DNA of 28,174 nt from a virus, in IMG/VR virus record IMGVR_UViG_3300031669_000184, positions 1 to 28,174 of that record. One strand, given 5' to 3'. Of this stretch, positions 2,816 to 28,174 are shown one piece after another (positions within the stretch are counted from its first letter, which is position 1; the number at the start of each line of letters is the position of its first letter). The notes under the pieces are model-generated. The model did no database searches. It worked only from the letters and a program-made list of their open reading frames with translations, and had not been told where the DNA came from. Position numbers and translations under genes: made by a program.

Positions 2816-2832
2816 TTTTGGAGGATAAAATA

Positions 2833-3564
2833 ATGTCTTTAAAAAATTCATTTGCGAAGGTTCCTAATAATAGACTTTCTAGAAACTTTGGTGGAACCGT
2901 AGCTGGTGTTGCTGATCCGTATTTGACTGGTTATCATTTTGTGTATTTCACAGCTTTCCCAACTGGTATTAAAACATACCTTCCAGGTGATAATAAAATG
3001 AATGAAACTGAAATGCAAAACCTGCTAGCAGGAGCTTGTTTATCAGTAACACCACCTGGTGGAACTTTAAATAAAGTAGAGTTCACTGGGCTTGGTGGCG
3101 TGAAGTGGGCAGTACCTGGTAACATCGACTATGGAAACTCTGTATCAGTTAAGTTTCTAGAGTTTAATGGTCTGCCGGTTTTAAATATCATGCACGCATG
3201 GATAAAGATGATCAGAGATTACAGAACTGGTACATCCAATCTGGTTGATGGACCTAGTCTTTCTGGTTATACAAAAGCAACTTATGCTTGTATTATGTAT
3301 TACTGGACTACAGCACCTGATGCTAAAACAGTTGAATATTATGCGGCATATGATGGTGTATTCCCAACTAAAGATCCACAAGATTTATTTACAAGTGATG
3401 TCGAAACAGTTGGGCGTCTTGATACTGAAATTGAGTTCAACGTTGATTATGTATGGCACGAAGATTGGACCAAAGCTAAATGTCAAGAGTATGCTGATGA
3501 GATTTTTGCTATTAAAGCAGACGTAGTTAATAAATACGGAGATACTGTTGCATCAGCAAGTTAA
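2833..3564 (+). CDS. Virion structural protein, possibly tail tube
   Basis: A 243-residue protein started at the ATG at 2833, which has GGAGG upstream; an in-frame TTG at 2818 would overlap that site and is rejected. The composition (Gly, Thr, aromatic and beta-prone, no membrane segment, no long helices) and the block SVKFLEFNGLPVLNIMHAWI followed by MIRDYRTG resemble the strand-helix arrangement in tail-tube-fold proteins of contractile phages. The position, ahead of baseplate genes in the same orientation, agrees. T4 gp19 is 163 residues, so this would be an enlarged version. It could also be a tube-fold terminator or neck protein. The assignment to a virion protein is fairly safe, to tube specifically less so. 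Confidence 0.5.
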   Translation: MSLKNSFAKVPNNRLSRNFGGTVAGVADPYLTGYHFVYFTAFPTGIKTYLPGDNKMNETEMQNLLAGACLSVTPPGGTLNKVEFTGLGGVKWAVPGNIDYGNSVSVKFLEFNGLPVLNIMHAWIKMIRDYRTGTSNLVDGPSLSGYTKATYACIMYYWTTAPDAKTVEYYAAYDGVFPTKDPQDLFTSDVETVGRLDTEIEFNVDYVWHEDWTKAKCQEYADEIFAIKADVVNKYGDTVASAS

Positions 3565-4790: not shown

Positions 4791-4836
4791 TAAGAATATA
4801 ATACAATAAAAAAGCGAACTGAAAGGAGATAGACTA

Positions 4837-5622
4837 ATGTTCAAAGGATTTAATATTAAGTACCCGGAGTATGAAGTAATAACACCGCAAACAAACAGAT
4901 CATATCACGTTAGATCATTAAATGTACAAGAAGAAGAAAAGTTAAAAGGCAGTTTATTAACTCCTTCTAAAATTAATGAACATCTGAATAAATGTTTATA
5001 TGATTCCATTACAGTAAAACCCGAAGACATCATAGATTATGATACCTGGTTAAAACAAACAACACTTAAAGATAGGGACGCGATACTATATGGACTTTAT
5101 CATATAACGTATGATGAGATACGAAACTATGATGTTCTTTGTGGGAGTTGTGGAAAAGATTACCCTGTTACAGTTAAAGCATCTTCAACATTTAATTATA
5201 ATGCATTTCCTGGAGAAGATGTTCTTTCAAAAAGAGTACCTATCAAACTTCCTATATCAAAGGGTGTTATAGCATATTTAAAACAACCGAGCTTGTTTGA
5301 TGAAGTATCGGCTATTAAAACACTGGCTATTTCAACTAAATCTAATTTAGATATAATTACTGAGACATTGGTAATTGATAGATTTGAAGATCAAACAAAA
5401 CCAGATACACCGATTGTTTATCAAGACAGGGAAGATGTTAGAGATGCATATCTCACACTTCCAGCCGGAGATAAAAGAGAAATCTATAAACATTATCGTG
5501 AAGAGTTTGGTAAATATGGAGTTAGCCTCAAAATGAGAAGTAACTGTATTCATTGTGGATTTGAAGAAGAAATCAACTTAGACTTAGTATCAAGCTTTTT
5601 TCGTATGGTACACTCGGTCTGA
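4837..5622 (+). CDS. T4 gp26-like baseplate protein (zero-frame product)
   Basis: A 261-residue protein with GGAG eight bases before the ATG. It follows the T4 baseplate gp26-type pattern: an N-terminal RSLNVQEEEKL block, a helical region with conserved aspartates, a zinc-ribbon half C102-G-S-C105, the PIKLP and LKQPSLFDE blocks, and a second half C237-I-H-C240 preceded by GVSLKMRSN. The four cysteines probably bind one zinc ion. These proteins work in assembly of the baseplate hub. The frame ends at TGA 5620-5622, soon after a T6 tract; the overlapping +1 frame carries what looks like the missing C-terminal part (see the next two entries). The next complete gene is gp25-like, in keeping with a baseplate cluster. 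Confidence 0.75.
   Translation: MFKGFNIKYPEYEVITPQTNRSYHVRSLNVQEEEKLKGSLLTPSKINEHLNKCLYDSITVKPEDIIDYDTWLKQTTLKDRDAILYGLYHITYDEIRNYDVLCGSCGKDYPVTVKASSTFNYNAFPGEDVLSKRVPIKLPISKGVIAYLKQPSLFDEVSAIKTLAISTKSNLDIITETLVIDRFEDQTKPDTPIVYQDREDVRDAYLTLPAGDKREIYKHYREEFGKYGVSLKMRSNCIHCGFEEEINLDLVSSFFRMVHSV
5593..5602 (+). other. Candidate +1 / -2 programmed frameshift site in the gp26-like gene
   Basis: The zero-frame codons AGC TTT TTT CGT contain a T6 run followed by C. A P-site phenylalanine tRNA on TTT could re-pair with TTC after a +1 slip, or two tRNAs could slip by -2 on the T run; both enter the frame open to 5803. The overlap available for shifting is only 5588-5620, between a TAG in the new frame (5585) and the zero-frame TGA, and the slippery run lies inside it. 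The -1 frame closes at 5649, so it would give only a short tail. A homopolymer sequencing error would give the same picture. Confidence 0.5.
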
Positions 5623-5803
5623 ATCAGTGTCCGAGTATAGGGAAACGTTAGAAAAAAATATTTTTACTTGTATCGAAGTTGGTAAAATGTCTTATGCTGA
5701 TATAATGTGTATGCCAGTATTAAGGATGTATAATTATCTAAAATGGAAAGCTAGTCTTGAAGAAGAAAAGCAAAAGATGATGTCCGAGGAATTCATGAGA
5801 TAG
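5603..5803 (+). CDS. Trans-frame extension of the gp26-like baseplate protein
   Basis: This 66-codon open stretch lies in the +1 frame and has no start codon with a ribosome site near its beginning; the first ATG (5687) is internal and weakly preceded. Read as a continuation of the gp26-like frame it gives VWYTRSESVSEYRETLEKN, then IFTCIEVGKMSYADIMCMPV and a charged helical end. The pattern (aromatic plus acidic start, helix, a 'MSYADIMCMP' turn, helix) is typical of the C-terminal parts of tail and baseplate assembly chaperones. The fusion product would be about 321 residues (322 with a -2 shift). The ending TAG is 10 bases before the gp25-like gene, whose AGAGGGG site overlaps that TAG, as expected in a packed operon. 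Confidence 0.5.
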   Translation, partial: VWYTRSESVSEYRETLEKNIFTCIEVGKMSYADIMCMPVLRMYNYLKWKASLEEEKQKMMSEEFMR

Positions 5804-5813
5804 AGGGGTAAAG

Positions 5814-6257
5814 ATGGCAAATTTATTAGATAGATTTAATAAGCAAGTTAAAGGGTCTCAAAATAAAATCTATGACTACATCCCAAAAATCACTGCAAAA
5901 GGAGATTTTAAAAGAATCTCAGATTTAAATGTTATTATAAATTCCTGGAATAACATTCTAATGACTCCTCGTAGAACCTATATAAATGATCCAGAGTATG
6001 GAAGCGATTTACATTTACAAGTATTCGAACCCGCTGATGCTCTTACTTCTGAGAGGATTGAAACAGAAATTGTTGAAAGACTTCGTCACTATGATGATAG
6101 AGCATCAATAATCAGTATGAATGTATTTACTTTTAAAAATCAAAAAGGATTTGAAGTTGATATTCAAGTTGATTTTAAAGGTGAAAAAGGCGACCTATCT
6201 ATAACATTTACCGACAGTTCATATAGAGAGTTACTAGAAAAAGGATCACTAACATAA
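5814..6257 (+). CDS. gp25-like baseplate wedge protein
   Basis: A 147-residue protein, close to the usual size of the gp25/gpW-like wedge family (T4 gp25 is 132). The family signature is visible: a TPRRTYINDPEYGSDL block with the conserved Tyr-Gly-Ser-x-Leu, then LQVFEPAD, ERIETEIVERLRHYDDRA and a beta-strand C-terminal half. In contractile tails this protein sits in the wedge core and connects to the sheath. The site AGAGGGG lies just before the ATG, and the stop overlaps the next start in TAATG, indicating coupled translation with the following unknown gene. This is the most secure anchor of the baseplate cluster. Confidence 0.9.
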   Translation: MANLLDRFNKQVKGSQNKIYDYIPKITAKGDFKRISDLNVIINSWNNILMTPRRTYINDPEYGSDLHLQVFEPADALTSERIETEIVERLRHYDDRASIISMNVFTFKNQKGFEVDIQVDFKGEKGDLSITFTDSSYRELLEKGSLT

Positions 6258-11927: not shown

Positions 11928-14765
11928 TTAAAACATCTCTAAATCTAAATAACTGGAATCAACTTTTCCGGTTATTACTGTTCTCTTAAGATCCTGATAT
12001 AAATTATTTGCTGCTTGTCCGCCTGAAGTTGCTATTTTTTGTGAAGAATCCGAAACTGTATTACTTAAATTTGTTACTTGAGTCCCAACAGATTCGCTAA
12101 TATTCTTGCTCATTTCTTTAGTTGCATCTAAAGTATTCTTAGCATTTTCTTCTAGTGCCTCAATAGTTTTCTTAGATTTTGCTTCGGCATCTTTAGCATA
12201 ATCTTTGGCTATTTCACTTGTTTCTTTAACTGCTGTCTCAACTTTATCTTTAATCTCTGTGGCTTTTTCCTTCCCCCTACTCCATACTACTTTTGCTTTG
12301 TTTTTCAAATCAGTAGCAGTAGTTCCTACTACACTTTCTGGTACTTTTCTTTTGTTTCCATGTTCTTGAAGATATCGTAAGAACTGCATCTCACGCCTAG
12401 TACCATAATCATGTACTTCGCCTTCGTCTATTTGTTTTCCAAAGAAACTCCATTTTTTTCTAGAGAAGTGAGGAACACTTTTATCCTCTATGATCCATTG
12501 GTTTCTCATCGCCGCAATTTCATTCGGATCGTACATAGAATAGATATCCCAATTTTTCGCCTGGTATTCTCTCTGTGCTGCAGCTACTAATTGAGATGCA
12601 TGAACTCCTGCTTTACCTAGCTGACTTTTTCTTGCTTCTCCTGCTTTACCTGCACCTCCTGCTGTTTGAGATATTTGTTGAGCCATTATTATTTTTTCTG
12701 TTTCAGATATTAAAGCTTTGTCTTTAACTTGCCCTTTTACTGCTCCTAGTTTGTCTTCTGTCACTTTCATTTTCTTTCTATGAGTAGACTCTGCTTCCGC
12801 AATGAGTTTATCGAAGTGTGCTATCCATTTTTTTCTTTGAGGGCCACTTATATATTTATCAATTAACGTTCCAATACCATATCCTATTGCAAACCCCATA
12901 GCTGGACCCAAAAAATTCTTAAATGCTGCTGGACTGAGAAAGTTTGCTAACCATGCTTTATTTAAACCAAGACCAGCTAATACAGTTCCAATTGTACCTA
13001 CGATTGTACTAATGATACTTCCTATTCCACTAAATGCACCCATTATTAAATCCCAGATTCTTTTCATCTTACCACGTTTATTCATTTGATCTAAATCTTT
13101 AGCTATTCCTTTTTGAGTCTTCTGCTCTTTTTTATGTTGTTTTACATTTGCAGCATATAAATTATTAACACCACTTAACAAACTGCCGCTACTTTGTTGT
13201 TCATCTCTCCATTTTTTATCCTCAATTTTTTTGGCTTCTTTCGCATACTCTACAATTCTTACTGGAGTTGGTGCTTTATCAGTACCTTCTGTTAGCTGCT
13301 TTTGTATATCTCCCCCACCAGGAAGTTCTCCATATAAGCTTTTATTTATTTTTGCACCTTCAGTGGCCTCCAATATTTTATTAATTAAATCTGTTCCCCA
13401 CATCTTTCTTTCTTTTGAAAGCCAGTCTCCGAGAGTTTTACCTTTTCCCCATCCTGCTTTTCCAGAACCTCCAAGCATCAAATCAATTCCACCTGCAATT
13501 AAAGGCGGAACAAATTTTGCACCTAGATTTAATGCCTTTCTAGCTATACCCATTATAGACCAGAATGTTTTCTGTATTCCAAGTAGAGGTGGATATTTTT
13601 TACCAGTTATGAATGTTGATAAATCTCTAGTTGCCCAAGCTGTATGTCTTGTATTTAAAACAATATTATCCAATCTATGCATACTTTCTGCATATAACAT
13701 ACCAAGTATTATACTCATATTTTCATAAGGATTTTTAGAATTAGGTAAATGACTTTTGTAACCACCTCGTGCTTTAAATACTGAGTATGCTATTCTTCCA
13801 GGTAATGATAAACCAGTAGATATTGTCTTTAAACCGAACATGATTTGTCTAAATGTTGGATGTTCAATCAACATTTTAGTCCATACTTGTTCCCATGTTC
13901 CAATTGTTGCCCCTAATGTATCCTGAATTGATAACACAGCTCGAAGCATTCTCATCTGTTGAGGTTCTTCATATTGTGTTTGAACTTGGTGCATTGCTCT
14001 AAGGAACCCTTTAAAAATACCAACTTTTTCTAATTTTTCTTGACCTTTTACATATCCAGCCATATTTGCCATTTGATGTAATTGGGCTCGTTTGAAAGCT
14101 ACTCCAATTTCTTGAACTGCACCGACGGACTCATCTATTCTACTTAAAACTTTTTCAATAGGAGCTACAATTTCTCCGGCATGGACTTCGACCATACCAC
14201 CTTTTTTGACGTATCCACCCTTCTGCATCTTTGGGATATCGCCATCTTCTTCTCCTTTTTTCCTTCCTTTAAAGAACCCTCCGATTGTTTTTCCAATACC
14301 ACTAAATACACTTTTAAGAGATTCGGCCATTTTCTCTTTGCCTTTTTGAAAAACATCGGTCTCCATAAACTTAGCTGCAAAATAACCAAATAGGGGAGTA
14401 CTTCTTGAGAGTGCCATTGCGACTATATTTTGTTTATTATAACTGATGTCTTCTGATATAGCTTTTCCGTATTGTGAAATAGCATCTTTGGTGGCTGTTG
14501 CAGTTCCTAATGTAATACTACTAATACCTTGAGCAAACGAACCCATAGTTTCTTTCATTTTATGAAGAACACCAATAGTAGCATTTTGAACTTCAGCAAT
14601 ACCTTCACTATCTCCTGCCATTTGTTCAACTTCAGTTAATCGTTGATCGACTTCAGCTTGCATTTGATTGACAGTATTTGAAACACTACTGACCTCGGAT
14701 ATCCTTGTATTTTGTGAATCAGCAGTTTGTGTAATGCTACCTGGTTCTATGGGTTTATCGGGCAT
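11928..14765 (-). CDS. Tape-measure-like protein
   Basis: At 945 residues this is one of the longest proteins here. The N-terminal 60 residues and the last 130 are heptad-rich (KAKVVWSRGKEKATEIKDKV and following), typical of coiled coils. At about 178-205 it has the tape-measure signature GGYVKKGGMVEVHAGEIVAP. Hydrophobic segments lie at about 410-430, 570-610 and 620-645 (MGFAIGYGIGTLIDKYI), as in tape measures that insert into or cross membranes during DNA delivery. If it sets tail length at about 0.15 nm per residue, the tail would be near 140 nm, longer than T4. It follows the metallopeptidase-like gene by five bases. An alternative is another internal virion protein with the same glycine motif. 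Confidence 0.7.
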   Translation of the reverse strand: MPDKPIEPGSITQTADSQNTRISEVSSVSNTVNQMQAEVDQRLTEVEQMAGDSEGIAEVQNATIGVLHKMKETMGSFAQGISSITLGTATATKDAISQYGKAISEDISYNKQNIVAMALSRSTPLFGYFAAKFMETDVFQKGKEKMAESLKSVFSGIGKTIGGFFKGRKKGEEDGDIPKMQKGGYVKKGGMVEVHAGEIVAPIEKVLSRIDESVGAVQEIGVAFKRAQLHQMANMAGYVKGQEKLEKVGIFKGFLRAMHQVQTQYEEPQQMRMLRAVLSIQDTLGATIGTWEQVWTKMLIEHPTFRQIMFGLKTISTGLSLPGRIAYSVFKARGGYKSHLPNSKNPYENMSIILGMLYAESMHRLDNIVLNTRHTAWATRDLSTFITGKKYPPLLGIQKTFWSIMGIARKALNLGAKFVPPLIAGGIDLMLGGSGKAGWGKGKTLGDWLSKERKMWGTDLINKILEATEGAKINKSLYGELPGGGDIQKQLTEGTDKAPTPVRIVEYAKEAKKIEDKKWRDEQQSSGSLLSGVNNLYAANVKQHKKEQKTQKGIAKDLDQMNKRGKMKRIWDLIMGAFSGIGSIISTIVGTIGTVLAGLGLNKAWLANFLSPAAFKNFLGPAMGFAIGYGIGTLIDKYISGPQRKKWIAHFDKLIAEAESTHRKKMKVTEDKLGAVKGQVKDKALISETEKIIMAQQISQTAGGAGKAGEARKSQLGKAGVHASQLVAAAQREYQAKNWDIYSMYDPNEIAAMRNQWIIEDKSVPHFSRKKWSFFGKQIDEGEVHDYGTRREMQFLRYLQEHGNKRKVPESVVGTTATDLKNKAKVVWSRGKEKATEIKDKVETAVKETSEIAKDYAKDAEAKSKKTIEALEENAKNTLDATKEMSKNISESVGTQVTNLSNTVSDSSQKIATSGGQAANNLYQDLKRTVITGKVDSSYLDLEMF

Positions 14766-18704: not shown

Positions 18705-19628
18705 TTAAGTAGTTTCTCCCGATTCTATCCTTGACAATACATCATACATTCTTGCCGGAATGACAAGAACGCTTTCAGCTGCACTCTCAAGCATTTTCTT
18801 TGCATTGAGGTTTTGTTCAAGACTACTATACCGAACAATTGCAAGGAACATTTGCCACAATGTTGGCAACCGGCCTTCTTCATCTTGCATATCTTCAAGC
18901 AATTTTGAAACTGCTTCTCTGCGGCGTTTACCAACAGCTTCAATCAGATCCATTGTACCGAGCATTTGTTGTTCAGTTACTTGCTCGGTAAAATTTTGTG
19001 ATATTAAGTCAATGATGTTTTCTGAAAATGCTCCCATATATGTTCCTATGGCTGAGGACATTGTTGTCCTTGCACTTTCAATGTGAACCATTCTCATTTC
19101 CCCTAATTTGAAGGCAAACGATAATGACTCACCATCATAATCCAATGAGATTGCAAATGCTACTGATGCCGCTTTTGTGCCGTCATAGCTATTATTTACA
19201 ACCATGACTGGGATAACATCGCCGGCTTCCAGAGTATTTTTACTGCTCTGAATGGCGATCTCATTTCTCATCCGGGTAAGGTCATATGACATAATGGTGT
19301 TTTCATCAATGATTGGGAATCCAATACTCTGGACTGAATCCCGAATCTGTTGATTTAAAACATCATTCCCAAGGAATTTATAAATGTTGGAAACATACCC
19401 ACAATATTTATAGTCTTCTTCGTCTGGTGGGCTTGTGTAAACTGCAACCACTGGGACAAAATCATTATCCGTTGGATGAACAAATACTTCATCCTCGCCT
19501 GGCAAATACCCTGTTGTCAATGCTCTATATGCAACAGAACCGTATCTGTCAGAATGGAAGAATAGCCCTTTGGCTGCTCCACTGGTGTTAAGACCCATTT
19601 CAGCTGCTCTCTCTGCGAAAGGTATCAT
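18705..19628 (-). CDS. Unknown phage protein, 307 aa
   Basis: Started at 19628 (MIPFAERAAEMGLN), where AAAGGAG lies upstream; a longer in-frame start at 19673 is inside the preceding gene and has no such site. The middle contains VIPVMVVNNSYDGTKAASVA followed by FAISLDYDGESLSFAFKLG, which faintly recalls DUF932-type phage proteins, and the C-terminal third is helical and charged (LIEAVGKRRREAVSKLLEDM). No membrane segment or catalytic motif is seen. It is the last gene before the terminator and overlaps the previous gene by 29 bases. Codons here are visibly more GC-rich than in the tail genes. Confidence 0.6.
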   Translation of the reverse strand: MIPFAERAAEMGLNTSGAAKGLFFHSDRYGSVAYRALTTGYLPGEDEVFVHPTDNDFVPVVAVYTSPPDEEDYKYCGYVSNIYKFLGNDVLNQQIRDSVQSIGFPIIDENTIMSYDLTRMRNEIAIQSSKNTLEAGDVIPVMVVNNSYDGTKAASVAFAISLDYDGESLSFAFKLGEMRMVHIESARTTMSSAIGTYMGAFSENIIDLISQNFTEQVTEQQMLGTMDLIEAVGKRRREAVSKLLEDMQDEEGRLPTLWQMFLAIVRYSSLEQNLNAKKMLESAAESVLVIPARMYDVLSRIESGETT

Positions 19629-19950
19629 TTGAAATCTCCTTTGTAAGCATATGTTCATCAAGAACATTGCCAATTGCTTTTTTCATCTCAAGAAAAAGTC
19701 CTTCTTGAAACACTACTGCGATGTCATTATATACTAATCTTGAAAAGTGTTTTAATAATATGTCCATAAATTGATCAGGAGTAACATCCCCGGTTATACC
19801 ATATCTACTTTTTCCGATATAGGTTTTATCCCTCATGCAAAATAATATCAGGTCTGCTTCATGTTGAAGATCATTTCTTGGGATTGTGTGAGTATGTGAC
19901 CCACCTCCCATACTGCCTGATAATTTTGAGTGAAATGTACTAGGAGCCAT
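19600..19950 (-). CDS. Hypothetical protein, 116 aa
   Basis: A small soluble protein whose ATG overlaps the stop of the methyltransferase-like gene in TAATG, with GGAGG upstream. It starts with a Ser/Gly/His-rich segment (KLSGSMGGGSHTHTIPRNDL), then forms a helical alpha/beta body (TPDQFMDILLKHFSRLVYND and VVFQEGLFLEMKKAIGNVL). The HTH residues in GGSHTHTIP could bind metal but are not a known site. It overlaps the next gene by 29 bases. The family is not recognised. Confidence 0.6.
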   Translation of the reverse strand: MAPSTFHSKLSGSMGGGSHTHTIPRNDLQHEADLILFCMRDKTYIGKSRYGITGDVTPDQFMDILLKHFSRLVYNDIAVVFQEGLFLEMKKAIGNVLDEHMLTKEISNDTFRRESS

Positions 19951-25233: not shown

Positions 25234-25445
25234 AAATATAACTCCTCTGGGTCAAATGAGAGGGGTATGGATTTTTCTTTTACTGGCTTTTCAACTTCAT
25301 CTATGTATGGATTTTTCAGTTTTGTTTTAATCTCTTTTAATTCACTCATCATTTTATATAAATGTGTGTCTCCCATTCCGTAAAACCCCGTAGATGATGA
25401 TGTAGATGTAGATGTGCCAGAAGACCAATCACTGATAGCAGACAT
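25230..25445 (-). CDS. Hypothetical protein, 71 aa
   Basis: A small protein whose ATG overlaps the stop of the RNA polymerase beta gene by one base (TAATG). It begins with a Ser/Thr-rich stretch (WSSGTSTSTSSSTGFYGMGD), then a helix (LYKMMSELKEIKTKLKN) and ends LSFDPEELYL. It could interact with the polymerase given strict coupling, but there is no direct evidence. No family recognised. Confidence 0.6.
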   Translation of the reverse strand: MSAISDWSSGTSTSTSSSTGFYGMGDTHLYKMMSELKEIKTKLKNPYIDEVEKPVKEKSIPLSFDPEELYL

Positions 25446-28174
25446 TATTTATGATTAACTCCTATGACGGTTAAGTATGAGTTAAGTAACTTAACTGATT
25501 CAGGAACTGTATCTAATTTTTCGGGTTCTTCTACTGCAGAAGGATCAATGAAGCTCCGTAGATATTGATTTTTAAGATCTATACAATCTGACTTGGTTGT
25601 TAAAAATTCAAACAGATTTTCTGGAGCATCATGAGCAATTATACAAGCAGTTTCCATTTCTCCACATCTTTGCCCACCTTTATTTTTTCTGCCACCTAAT
25701 GGTTGGAGGGTTCTCTTTGCATATGTTCCAATCCCTCTTGCTGCCAGTTTTTCTTCTGCAATATGAACCATACGGAAGAAGTAAATGAAGCCAACTGCAA
25801 TTTCATTTAAGAGATGGGTATTTGATAATGGATCAAATATTTTTTGCTTGAATTGTGTGCCCGTATATTCTAAAGCTTTTTCCATGTCCTCTATTTTACA
25901 TGACTCAAATGGAGGTTGAATAATTGTGAGATTCTTTATATATGTCGGAGTAATCATTTCGGGAAGTTGTTCTTCAAATTGTTCATAATACCACCCAGTT
26001 TCCGTTTTGTCTACCAGTTTAATATAATCTAATAGATACTTTCTAATCTCACTTTGATCCTGTTTAGTTTTCAACATCTCAAACATATTTCCCTTTAAAC
26101 TATCAAGAGACATAGCGAGATGCAACTCATATAGTTGACCAATATTCATTCTGGAGATGATACCTAATGGGTTAATACAGATATCAAGATGCCTACCATC
26201 CTCTAACTGTGGCATTTTTTCATGAGATACAATTCTTGAAATAACACCTTTATTCCCATGACGGTTGGCAATTTTGTCTCCACACTTTATTTGTCTGAAA
26301 TGTACACCAAACATTTGAACATGGATACCATTGATCTTTTCTCTTTTGTTTTTGTATTTACCAACGAAAGTAGAAATTTCTAAATCGTTTTCTTTTATAA
26401 ACTTATTTGCATCATCCTTCGGTAACTTACTTTTAATTAATTTCCTTAAATCAGCTTCCTTGTCTTGTTGTTTTTCAATAGTTTCCTCAACCCAATCCTT
26501 ATATTGAGGAACATCGTCATTCCATTCATTAGCAAATATTTTAACTTCTGATATGATGAAGTTTTTATCTGCTTCCAACCTTATCTCTTCACTAAATACA
26601 GAGTATAAATCTTCTGAGGTTAAGGTTTTGATTATGGCATATGGATTACCGATATTTATTTTTTCAAACTCATCTGGTAGAGGTTTATATTCGTCCTTTG
26701 AAAGAGATAGCAGAACTTTATTCGGCGGGATTGTAAATGATAGATCATGAAAATGTACAGATGTGAATGTACCTTCCTTTACCAATCTGTCGGATATAAT
26801 GATTCCGTCTTCATAGTTATTTCCATAATAAACCATAACGCCTGTTAATAGATTTTTACCAAATGATATTTCTCCATCCTTACAGTAATTGCTTTCTGCA
26901 AGTATTGTCCCAGCTTTAAATTTATCACCAGGTTTGACATAGATATTCATGAAGTCCATGTGCTCAACATATATTTTTCTATAACCAATATTGAATATGT
27001 CAAATTCATTATTATCATAAGCAACTATAAGATATGTGTTGTCTATGTGAATGACTTCGCCATCCCTTTTTGCTTTTTTCACAAATTGCGTATAATCTGT
27101 ATATAGACTTTCACATCCAGATTGAATCATTGGTCTGTCAAAGTCTTTTAACAATATCGCCTGACGCATTTGAGAAGCCGCCATTTGCAATCTTGTTTGA
27201 TCATCATGCTCTAATAATGGAGTGAACGAAACAGGGATTGAAATTGGTTGGTTTTTTAAGAAATCATCTTGAAATCTCAGATTATCATCAACCAATACAT
27301 TGGGTATAAGATTTTGTAGAACCCCACAATTGTCTCTATCTGGTGTATCAACTGGGCATACCCTTCCGAACATTGTTGGGCATATATCTCTGAGATGCCT
27401 TGGAATATTTTCTCTTTTGAATCCGCCTGGGCCAAGTAGACTTATTCTTGACAACTTTGTTAACTCTTCGACCGGATTTATTGAAAAGTCAAATTGAACT
27501 ATATCCGATACATTACATTCTGATAATATTTGAGTTGAGTTAATACTGAATTTTGGTTGTCTGCTTGATCTATTTGAGAAACATAGATCAAATATAATCT
27601 TGGACACTTTGGCATATATCATATACTCAAAACATCTTATTCTTTTATTGACGAATAGTGTATCATCAATATGTTTGGTTTTCATTGCTTCAATGAGTTC
27701 TTCAATAATTGAACCCGTTTGTAGGAAGTGGTTTGTTAAAACATCAACTTTGGGAATGAGATCTAATGCATAAATAATATCACTTCCCTTTGATTTTGCA
27801 TTGTAGCGAGAATAGACTCTACCTATTTCGTGAATAAAATCGTCTTGGCTGAATCCTTTTGATTCTTCATAAAAACTTTTAAGGTCTTCTAGTAGATTTA
27901 AATATAGATCTTCACTGGCTTCTTCGATTACCAAATTTTTAAAATCAAATCTTTGATTCAATACAGCTGGTCCGTAGAAACCAAACATTAAAAGAGCAAA
28001 TGAGATCTTTTTCCCAAGAAAACTGACTTGAACGTATGGTATTTCACGCTCTCTAAATAGCATCAGTGTTGCGACATTAGTCCTTAATTTAATGGACTCG
28101 CCTCTTGTTACGATTGGGATATCAAATAACTGAAATAATGGAATCTTTCTTCGACCGTTTATAATGATATAATT
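25445..28174 (-). CDS. Multisubunit RNA polymerase beta subunit, 5' end beyond window
   Basis: The frame is open through the window edge, so the ATG at 28063 is internal: 37 further codons (YIIINGRRKIPLFQLFDIPI and onward) match the beta-subunit INGxxx region. Visible length is 909 residues. Numbered from the window edge: SRISLLGPGGFKREN at about 242-256, GRVCPVDTP at about 270-278, YYGNNYEDGIIIS at about 449-461, GDKIANRHGNKGVIS at about 632-646 with the two lysines near the catalytic site, INPLGIISRMNIGQ, and LQPLGGRKNKGGQRCGEME. The C-terminus VPESVKLLNSYLTVIGV matches the end of bacterial RpoB. So from about E. coli residue 135 to the end beta is one chain, much compacted. It would transcribe phage genes with a beta' partner encoded elsewhere. 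Confidence 0.93.
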   Translation of the reverse strand, partial: NYIIINGRRKIPLFQLFDIPIVTRGESIKLRTNVATLMLFREREIPYVQVSFLGKKISFALLMFGFYGPAVLNQRFDFKNLVIEEASEDLYLNLLEDLKSFYEESKGFSQDDFIHEIGRVYSRYNAKSKGSDIIYALDLIPKVDVLTNHFLQTGSIIEELIEAMKTKHIDDTLFVNKRIRCFEYMIYAKVSKIIFDLCFSNRSSRQPKFSINSTQILSECNVSDIVQFDFSINPVEELTKLSRISLLGPGGFKRENIPRHLRDICPTMFGRVCPVDTPDRDNCGVLQNLIPNVLVDDNLRFQDDFLKNQPISIPVSFTPLLEHDDQTRLQMAASQMRQAILLKDFDRPMIQSGCESLYTDYTQFVKKAKRDGEVIHIDNTYLIVAYDNNEFDIFNIGYRKIYVEHMDFMNIYVKPGDKFKAGTILAESNYCKDGEISFGKNLLTGVMVYYGNNYEDGIIISDRLVKEGTFTSVHFHDLSFTIPPNKVLLSLSKDEYKPLPDEFEKINIGNPYAIIKTLTSEDLYSVFSEEIRLEADKNFIISEVKIFANEWNDDVPQYKDWVEETIEKQQDKEADLRKLIKSKLPKDDANKFIKENDLEISTFVGKYKNKREKINGIHVQMFGVHFRQIKCGDKIANRHGNKGVISRIVSHEKMPQLEDGRHLDICINPLGIISRMNIGQLYELHLAMSLDSLKGNMFEMLKTKQDQSEIRKYLLDYIKLVDKTETGWYYEQFEEQLPEMITPTYIKNLTIIQPPFESCKIEDMEKALEYTGTQFKQKIFDPLSNTHLLNEIAVGFIYFFRMVHIAEEKLAARGIGTYAKRTLQPLGGRKNKGGQRCGEMETACIIAHDAPENLFEFLTTKSDCIDLKNQYLRSFIDPSAVEEPEKLDTVPESVKLLNSYLTVIGVNHK

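Follow-up and report, generated by a model that had tools for sequence, protein, structure and literature searches.

A stretch of viral DNA of 28,174 nucleotides (IMG/VR record IMGVR_UViG_3300031669_000184; hereafter the window) carries a gene related to gp26, a baseplate hub protein of T4-like phages, and the end of this gene raises the question of how an overlapping open frame of 66 further codons is expressed. An earlier note on this DNA had proposed a programmed frameshift, leaving open whether by +1 or −2, and had named a sequencing error or indel as the alternative. Comparison of 88 homologues strongly supports programmed shifting, without protein-level proof. We consider, with a probability of about 0.9, that the gp26-like gene gives rise to two proteins by programmed +1 ribosomal frameshifting.

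Results

The gp26-like gene and its overlapping frame

The elements at the end of the gene are the following:

4837..5622, plus strand: gp26-like gene, zero frame, 261-aa short form ending ...DLVSSFFRMVHSV*; PF12322, phrog_150, Shine-Dalgarno and ATG
5596..5604, plus strand: putative shift site TTT TTT CGT; TTT CGN at the same position in 88/88 homologues
5603..5803, plus strand: +1-frame C-terminal extension, 66 codons and TAG (V W Y T R S ... E E F M R)
join 4837-5601, 5603-5803, plus strand: inferred transframe long form, gp51-like, 321 aa, read with CGTA=V; profile match to cyanophage fusion

The zero-frame product matched PF12322 (T4_baseplate; 35.8 bits, cut-off 24.5, residues 10-256), the match extending to the FFR of the shift site, as well as the phrog_150 baseplate hub profile (E 6e-10). 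The gene starts with an ATG preceded by the Shine-Dalgarno sequence AAGGAGA (4823-4829), and its 3' end reads GTA TCA AGC TTT TTT CGT ATG GTA CAC TCG GTC TGA, with the stop at 5620-5622. The +1 frame stays free of stops from 5588 up to its TAG at 5801-5803. These frames agree with those of the earlier note, except that the overlap measures 35 bases instead of 33. The TTT TTT C claimed for the overlap is present (5596-5602), its triplets being those of the zero frame, and 66 codons were indeed counted after the shift codon. The +1 frame was also correctly said to lack a plausible start: the earliest in-frame start codon, a GTG, comes only at codon 8, has no Shine-Dalgarno and is not conserved. 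Within the site, TTT 5599-5601 would be the slippery P-site codon, C 5602 the skipped base and CGT 5602-5604 the A-site codon.

Conservation of the putative shift site

Nineteen homologous loci were taken from IMG/VR via patterns outside the shift site, and further IMG/VR homologues came from an alignment query, which is partly biased since one of its two patterns covers FFR. GTDB genomes, searched with patterns away from the shift site, gave three contigs binned as archaea (L095, L096 and L097; Thermoplasmatales, Lokiarchaeota and Woesearchaeota MAGs), which may point to the host or to mis-binning. The set comprised 88 aligned sequences, 44% to 100% identical, of which 52 representatives remained after clustering at 85%; some homologue contigs exceed 200 kb.

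The earlier note had asked whether the overlap and the T run are conserved. The same split frame was kept in all 88 homologues, including all 22 collected via patterns outside the shift site, and the same T6 run in 87 of them, the exception being homologue L018. That a sequencing error or recent indel broke one continuous gene, an idea to which the homopolymer at the junction lends itself, is refuted by this result, as a continuous frame was found in none of the homologues, and it can practically be discarded.

The extension lay in the +1 frame in 88/88 homologues, the direction being fixed, and an invariant TTT CGN stood 5-7 codons before the zero-frame stop in every one. The arrangement, its conservation and the +1 direction are thereby shown, the last by comparison only, and such constancy goes far beyond what chance would give. 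CGN accounts for 20-22% of Arg codons upstream in the same genes versus 100% at the shift site, and TTT for 78% of upstream Phe codons versus 88/88. All four CGN codons occur at the site; CGC and CGG together occupy it in 43/88 homologues, compared with about 3% of Arg codons upstream. For the excess of CGN a naive P of about 2e-35 was obtained with the 52 cluster representatives taken as independent. Phylogeny makes this P too small; despite this caveat, the enrichment is very large. The preceding E-site codon is TTT in 87 homologues, TTC in one and UCC in none.

In-frame TTT CGN within six codons of a gene end also occurs in two minus-strand ORFs of the window, probably by chance. At ORF 19600-19950 the pair falls where the following gene begins, which has a Shine-Dalgarno and an ATG of its own, and ORF 1744-2160 has no extension; both were taken as coincidence. 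Elsewhere in the window no avoidance of TTT CGN was detected (4 observed vs 2.3 expected), thus there is no sign of genome-wide counter-selection.

Direction and level of the proposed shift

The T6 run leaves room for two other routes to the extension. A −2 ribosomal frameshift on TTT TTT would lead to the same frame with one more Phe, and the run would permit this slip of tRNA-Phe in 87/88 homologues. If, instead, the polymerase dropped one U within T6, ribosomes could read the edited mRNA without changing frame and would produce exactly the protein that a +1 ribosomal shift gives; the T6 run of the same 87/88 homologues is compatible with such transcriptional slippage, and ORF 25445-28063, judged by eye and by AR9 kinship, suggests that the virus has an RNA-polymerase-like subunit of its own. 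Six T residues are a short run for slippage by bacterial polymerases.

The exceptional homologue L018 is informative here. Its shift region reads AAT TTC TTT CGG and the split frame is kept; tRNA-Phe would need to re-pair on TCT after a −2 slip, and only T3-C-T3 is left for a slipping polymerase. Since L018 offers good pairing neither for −2 nor for a T-run slip, but re-pairs perfectly after a +1 slip (UUU to UUC), the shift is taken to be +1; tRNA-Phe can make this slip in all of the homologues. Furthermore, a +1 shift ahead of a slow CGN codon predicts the invariant C and G that follow TTT, whereas the −2 slip leaves them without a reason and transcriptional slippage gives the CGN codon no role. 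A −2 shift and transcriptional slippage are thus both very unlikely; between the two directions that had been left open, the evidence favours +1 and disfavours −2.

Selection on the extension and absence of a start

Past the overlap, the extension read in the +1 frame had a mean pN/pS of 0.38 and a median dN/dS of 0.35, compared with 0.37 and 0.24 for the gene body; the other two frames of the same region gave ratios of 0.96 and 1.25. The extension is under purifying selection in the +1 frame only.

It might instead be a small gene in its own right, starting independently, which is how databases annotate gp51 in cyanophages, many of which carry it as a separate CDS. Across the homologues, though, the extension frame has neither a conserved start codon nor a conserved Shine-Dalgarno. 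An ATG becomes common only at about codon 23, and initiation there would discard conserved residues. Most homologues lack a Shine-Dalgarno for the extension, unlike the gp26-like gene and the gp25-like gene in the window, and the profile match to the cyanophage fusion described below crosses the junction. A separate gene is therefore highly improbable.

Possible stimulatory elements

One candidate element was found next to the shift site:

5612..5636, plus strand: possible stimulatory stem-loop ACTCGG / CCGAGT, 6 bp, 10 nt downstream of the slippery codon

Some of the homologues have stems of 6-10 bp in this register (12/52 representatives share it), and folding downstream of the site is mildly more stable than that of shuffles, with a mean z of −0.7 to −0.9 versus 0.0 upstream. 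RNAalifold gave no consensus structure on the ungapped region. Upstream of the shift site, no match to the anti-Shine-Dalgarno sequence beyond 4 bases was seen. The downstream stem is not universal among the homologues and may be a lineage-specific stimulator.

Gene neighbourhood

Genes resembling those for tail components lie on both sides of the gp26-like gene:

2818..3564, plus strand: tail-tube-like gene, two genes upstream of the gp26-like gene; phrog_45 tail tube, E 8e-7
5814..6257, plus strand: gp25-like baseplate wedge gene, immediately downstream; phrog_261 (E 1e-18), phrog_43

In named T4-like phages the gene order is tail tube, gp26, gp51. The gp25-like gene has an ATG and its own Shine-Dalgarno-like, purine-rich stretch. 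A tail assembly chaperone of the G/GT type would be expected between the tail-tube and tape-measure genes; in the window, a tape-measure-like ORF (11928-14765) sits in another place, on the minus strand, the gp26-like gene being on the plus strand. Two further minus-strand ORFs were noted: ORF 25445-28063 resembles, by eye, a subunit of RNA polymerase of the beta type, which fits AR9/PBS1-like jumbo phages, and ORF 453-1544, near the tail genes, contains CENKCKFC, a CxxxCxxC motif of the kind usual in radical-SAM enzymes.

Relation to gp26 and gp51 of T4-like phages

On phrog_150, T4 gp26 (208 aa) matches positions 14-235 and T4 gp51 (249 aa) positions 13-280, which makes them a short and a long paralogue. 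The zero frame of the window ends at position 235 of this profile and the fused form reaches 264. In cyanophages and their relatives, the gp26 frame ends NNT TTT TTC NNN stop and is followed by an extension in the −1 frame in 96/96 IMG/VR loci, a count that excludes L195 (without a full-length match) and L178 of AR9. In marine T4-like phages this T_TTT_TTC lies three codons ahead of the stop of the gp26 gene. The extension is labelled 'gp51, baseplate hub assembly catalyst' or hypothetical protein, or is left unannotated. Among named isolates, P-SSM2, S-PM2, DLP6, VH7D and SRB7757 carry T_TTT_TTC, and phiM19 and pf16 carry T_TTT_TTT, all with −1. Taken together, homologues and isolates indicate that the shift position is conserved at two Phe codons and that its direction differs by lineage, T4 having two genes.

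The long form of the window clade aligned end to end, through the FF junction, with the cyanophage gp26-gp51 fusion (residues 7-320 to 6-299, probability 92.7, P 4e-7), which shows the two to be related. The cyanophage fusion in turn matched T4 gp51 (probability 98, P 3e-14), while the window-clade long form and T4 gp51, compared directly, gave no significant profile match. When only the extensions were compared, that of the window clade matched the cyanophage one weakly (P 0.02; too short for significance) and the cyanophage one matched T4 gp51 with a probability of 93 (P 4e-7). The putative transframe product is best described as a gp51-like long form of gp26, linked to T4 gp51 only via the cyanophage fusion.

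Three phage records stand apart. In Bacillus phage AR9 (L021, 2150-3573) the homologue, g231, is followed by a 66-aa ORF, g230, which is annotated from CTG, is similar to the extension and stays open in the −1 frame. Both shift motifs are missing there, and AGGAGG occurs just before the stop. Listeria phage LPJP1 (L022, 3320-3341) has CTT TTT CGT in frame at the equivalent position, and the record ends a few codons later. In Synechococcus phage S-SCSM1 (L026, 2163-2374) T_TTT_TTC is kept, the −1 frame closes at once and the extension is in the +1 frame; this may be a genuine exception, or else reflect an error or a local indel.

Predicted fold

An AlphaFold2 model was made on the long form of homologue L012 (mean pLDDT 87.8). 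The body of the model contains two CxxC pairs whose four Cys are all invariant, and the extension is predicted to form two long helices. The named BFVD matches of the model were mostly gp26-type baseplate hub proteins. A sequence search for a solved structure gave a best E of 0.36, and Foldseek against the PDB no match under E 0.001. VIA-align ranked two structures highest, 3klu (Z 7.2), which is YqbN from a prophage, and 2ob9 (Z 7.1), the tail assembly chaperone of HK97; 5ir0 (Z 5.2) and a fourth chain (3.9) followed. 3klu, 2ob9 and 5ir0 all match within model residues 1-96, the N-domain, whose predicted fold resembles the HK97 chaperone and, more broadly, siphophage tail-assembly chaperones. 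We take YqbN to belong to the tail-assembly-chaperone group. A Z near 7 is below the comfort level of VIA-align and may reflect a common arrangement. With this reservation, two phage tail proteins standing clear of the other VIA-align matches to the predicted fold suit a reading of gp26/gp51 as G/GT-type chaperones.

Discussion

In the mechanism that we propose, most ribosomes would decode TTT TTT CGT in frame and terminate six codons later, giving the 261-aa short form. Peptidyl-tRNA-Phe on UUU may, however, slip one base forward to UUC in front of CGN, UUC being a better match than UUU for the GAA anticodon of tRNA-Phe, and reading in the +1 frame would then add 66 residues to yield the 321-aa long form. 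The two forms would be the counterparts of T4 gp26 and gp51, which are hub-assembly proteins. The occurrence of shifting and its efficiency are inferred, with no peptide, reporter or ribosome-profiling data behind them.

By its in-frame UUU CGN in the overlap and its +1 extension, the presumed site is of the UUU_CGN class. In influenza PA-X, the shift at such a site was shown to be +1 by mass spectrometry (PMC3498833), and for amalgaviruses, where all four CGN codons occur, the motif was proposed and stated as UUU_CGN only (PMC5052127). Influenza A PA-X and the plant amalgaviruses share with the window a P-site UUU, a skipped C, an A-site CGN and the +1 direction, and amalgaviruses also the variable N of CGN seen among the window homologues. 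These are, however, RNA viruses translated by eukaryotic ribosomes, whereas the window belongs to a dsDNA phage using prokaryotic ribosomes. The E site of PA-X is UCC, which is not known to define the whole class, compared with UUU or UUC in the window family. Within our incomplete coverage of the literature, no report of UUU_CGN in a phage was found, the papers retrieved concerning eukaryotes and their viruses. In bacteria, +1 slippage in the P site while the A site holds a slowly read codon is known from prfB and Listeria phage PSA; there the codon is a stop or the proline codon CCC, whereas the window has a sense Arg codon and no Shine-Dalgarno. Among +1 cases in phages, a review lists Listeria phages and HSTV-2 (PMC5009743).

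The earlier note had regarded a +1 or −2 shift in a gp26-type gene as unusual. A shift as such is not unusual in the family, where it appears widespread, elsewhere as −1; the unusual features here are the +1 direction and the putative UUU_CGN site. S-PM2, P-SSM2, DLP6, VH7D, phiM19 and pf16 share with the window the gene, the shift position at the FF codons, the kind of extension and the nearby stop, but shift by −1 at T_TTT_TTC or T_TTT_TTT instead of by +1 at TTT TTT CGN. T4 shares the family (PF12322/phrog_150) and the possession of a short and a long form, both hub assembly chaperones, gp51 and the window long form having in common an extra C-terminal segment with the pattern Y..I..MP..R....L; it differs in encoding them by two divergently placed paralogous genes, where the window virus has one gene and a frameshift. 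We found no report of −1 or +1 frameshifting of gp26/gp51, subscription journals being incompletely covered.

Judged by fold and gene position, the short and long forms most likely act like the gpG/gpGT tail-assembly chaperones, a role that is inferred. As in lambda gpG/gpGT, a short protein would be accompanied by a low-abundance frameshift extension, and the gene lies near that of the tail tube; unlike here, G-T shifting is mostly −1, and a sequence relation of the gp26-like protein to G proteins has not been shown. G-T shifting is described as widely conserved 'except T4' (review, PMC5009743), and gp26/gp51 looks like the G/GT chaperone system said to be absent from T4. On balance we lean, with some reserve, towards gp26/gp51 being the tail assembly chaperone pair of the entire T4-like supergroup, made by programmed frameshifting in most of its members, with gene duplication having taken the place of the shift in T4 and the direction having switched between −1 and +1 at one and the same pair of Phe codons.

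A frameshift origin of the long form would explain where the T4 helper protein gp51 comes from, and the programmed +1 frameshift, with its comparative support and no protein-level proof, opens a testable account of that protein. To judge from the results, many 'gp51' entries seem to be wrongly annotated pieces of transframe proteins; 547 phage records match the cyanophage extension. UUU_CGN, known from eukaryotic RNA viruses, is hereby placed on prokaryotic ribosomes, where dissection is easy, and if the reading for the T4-like supergroup is true, it would be a +1 shift motif that works on prokaryotic ribosomes as well.
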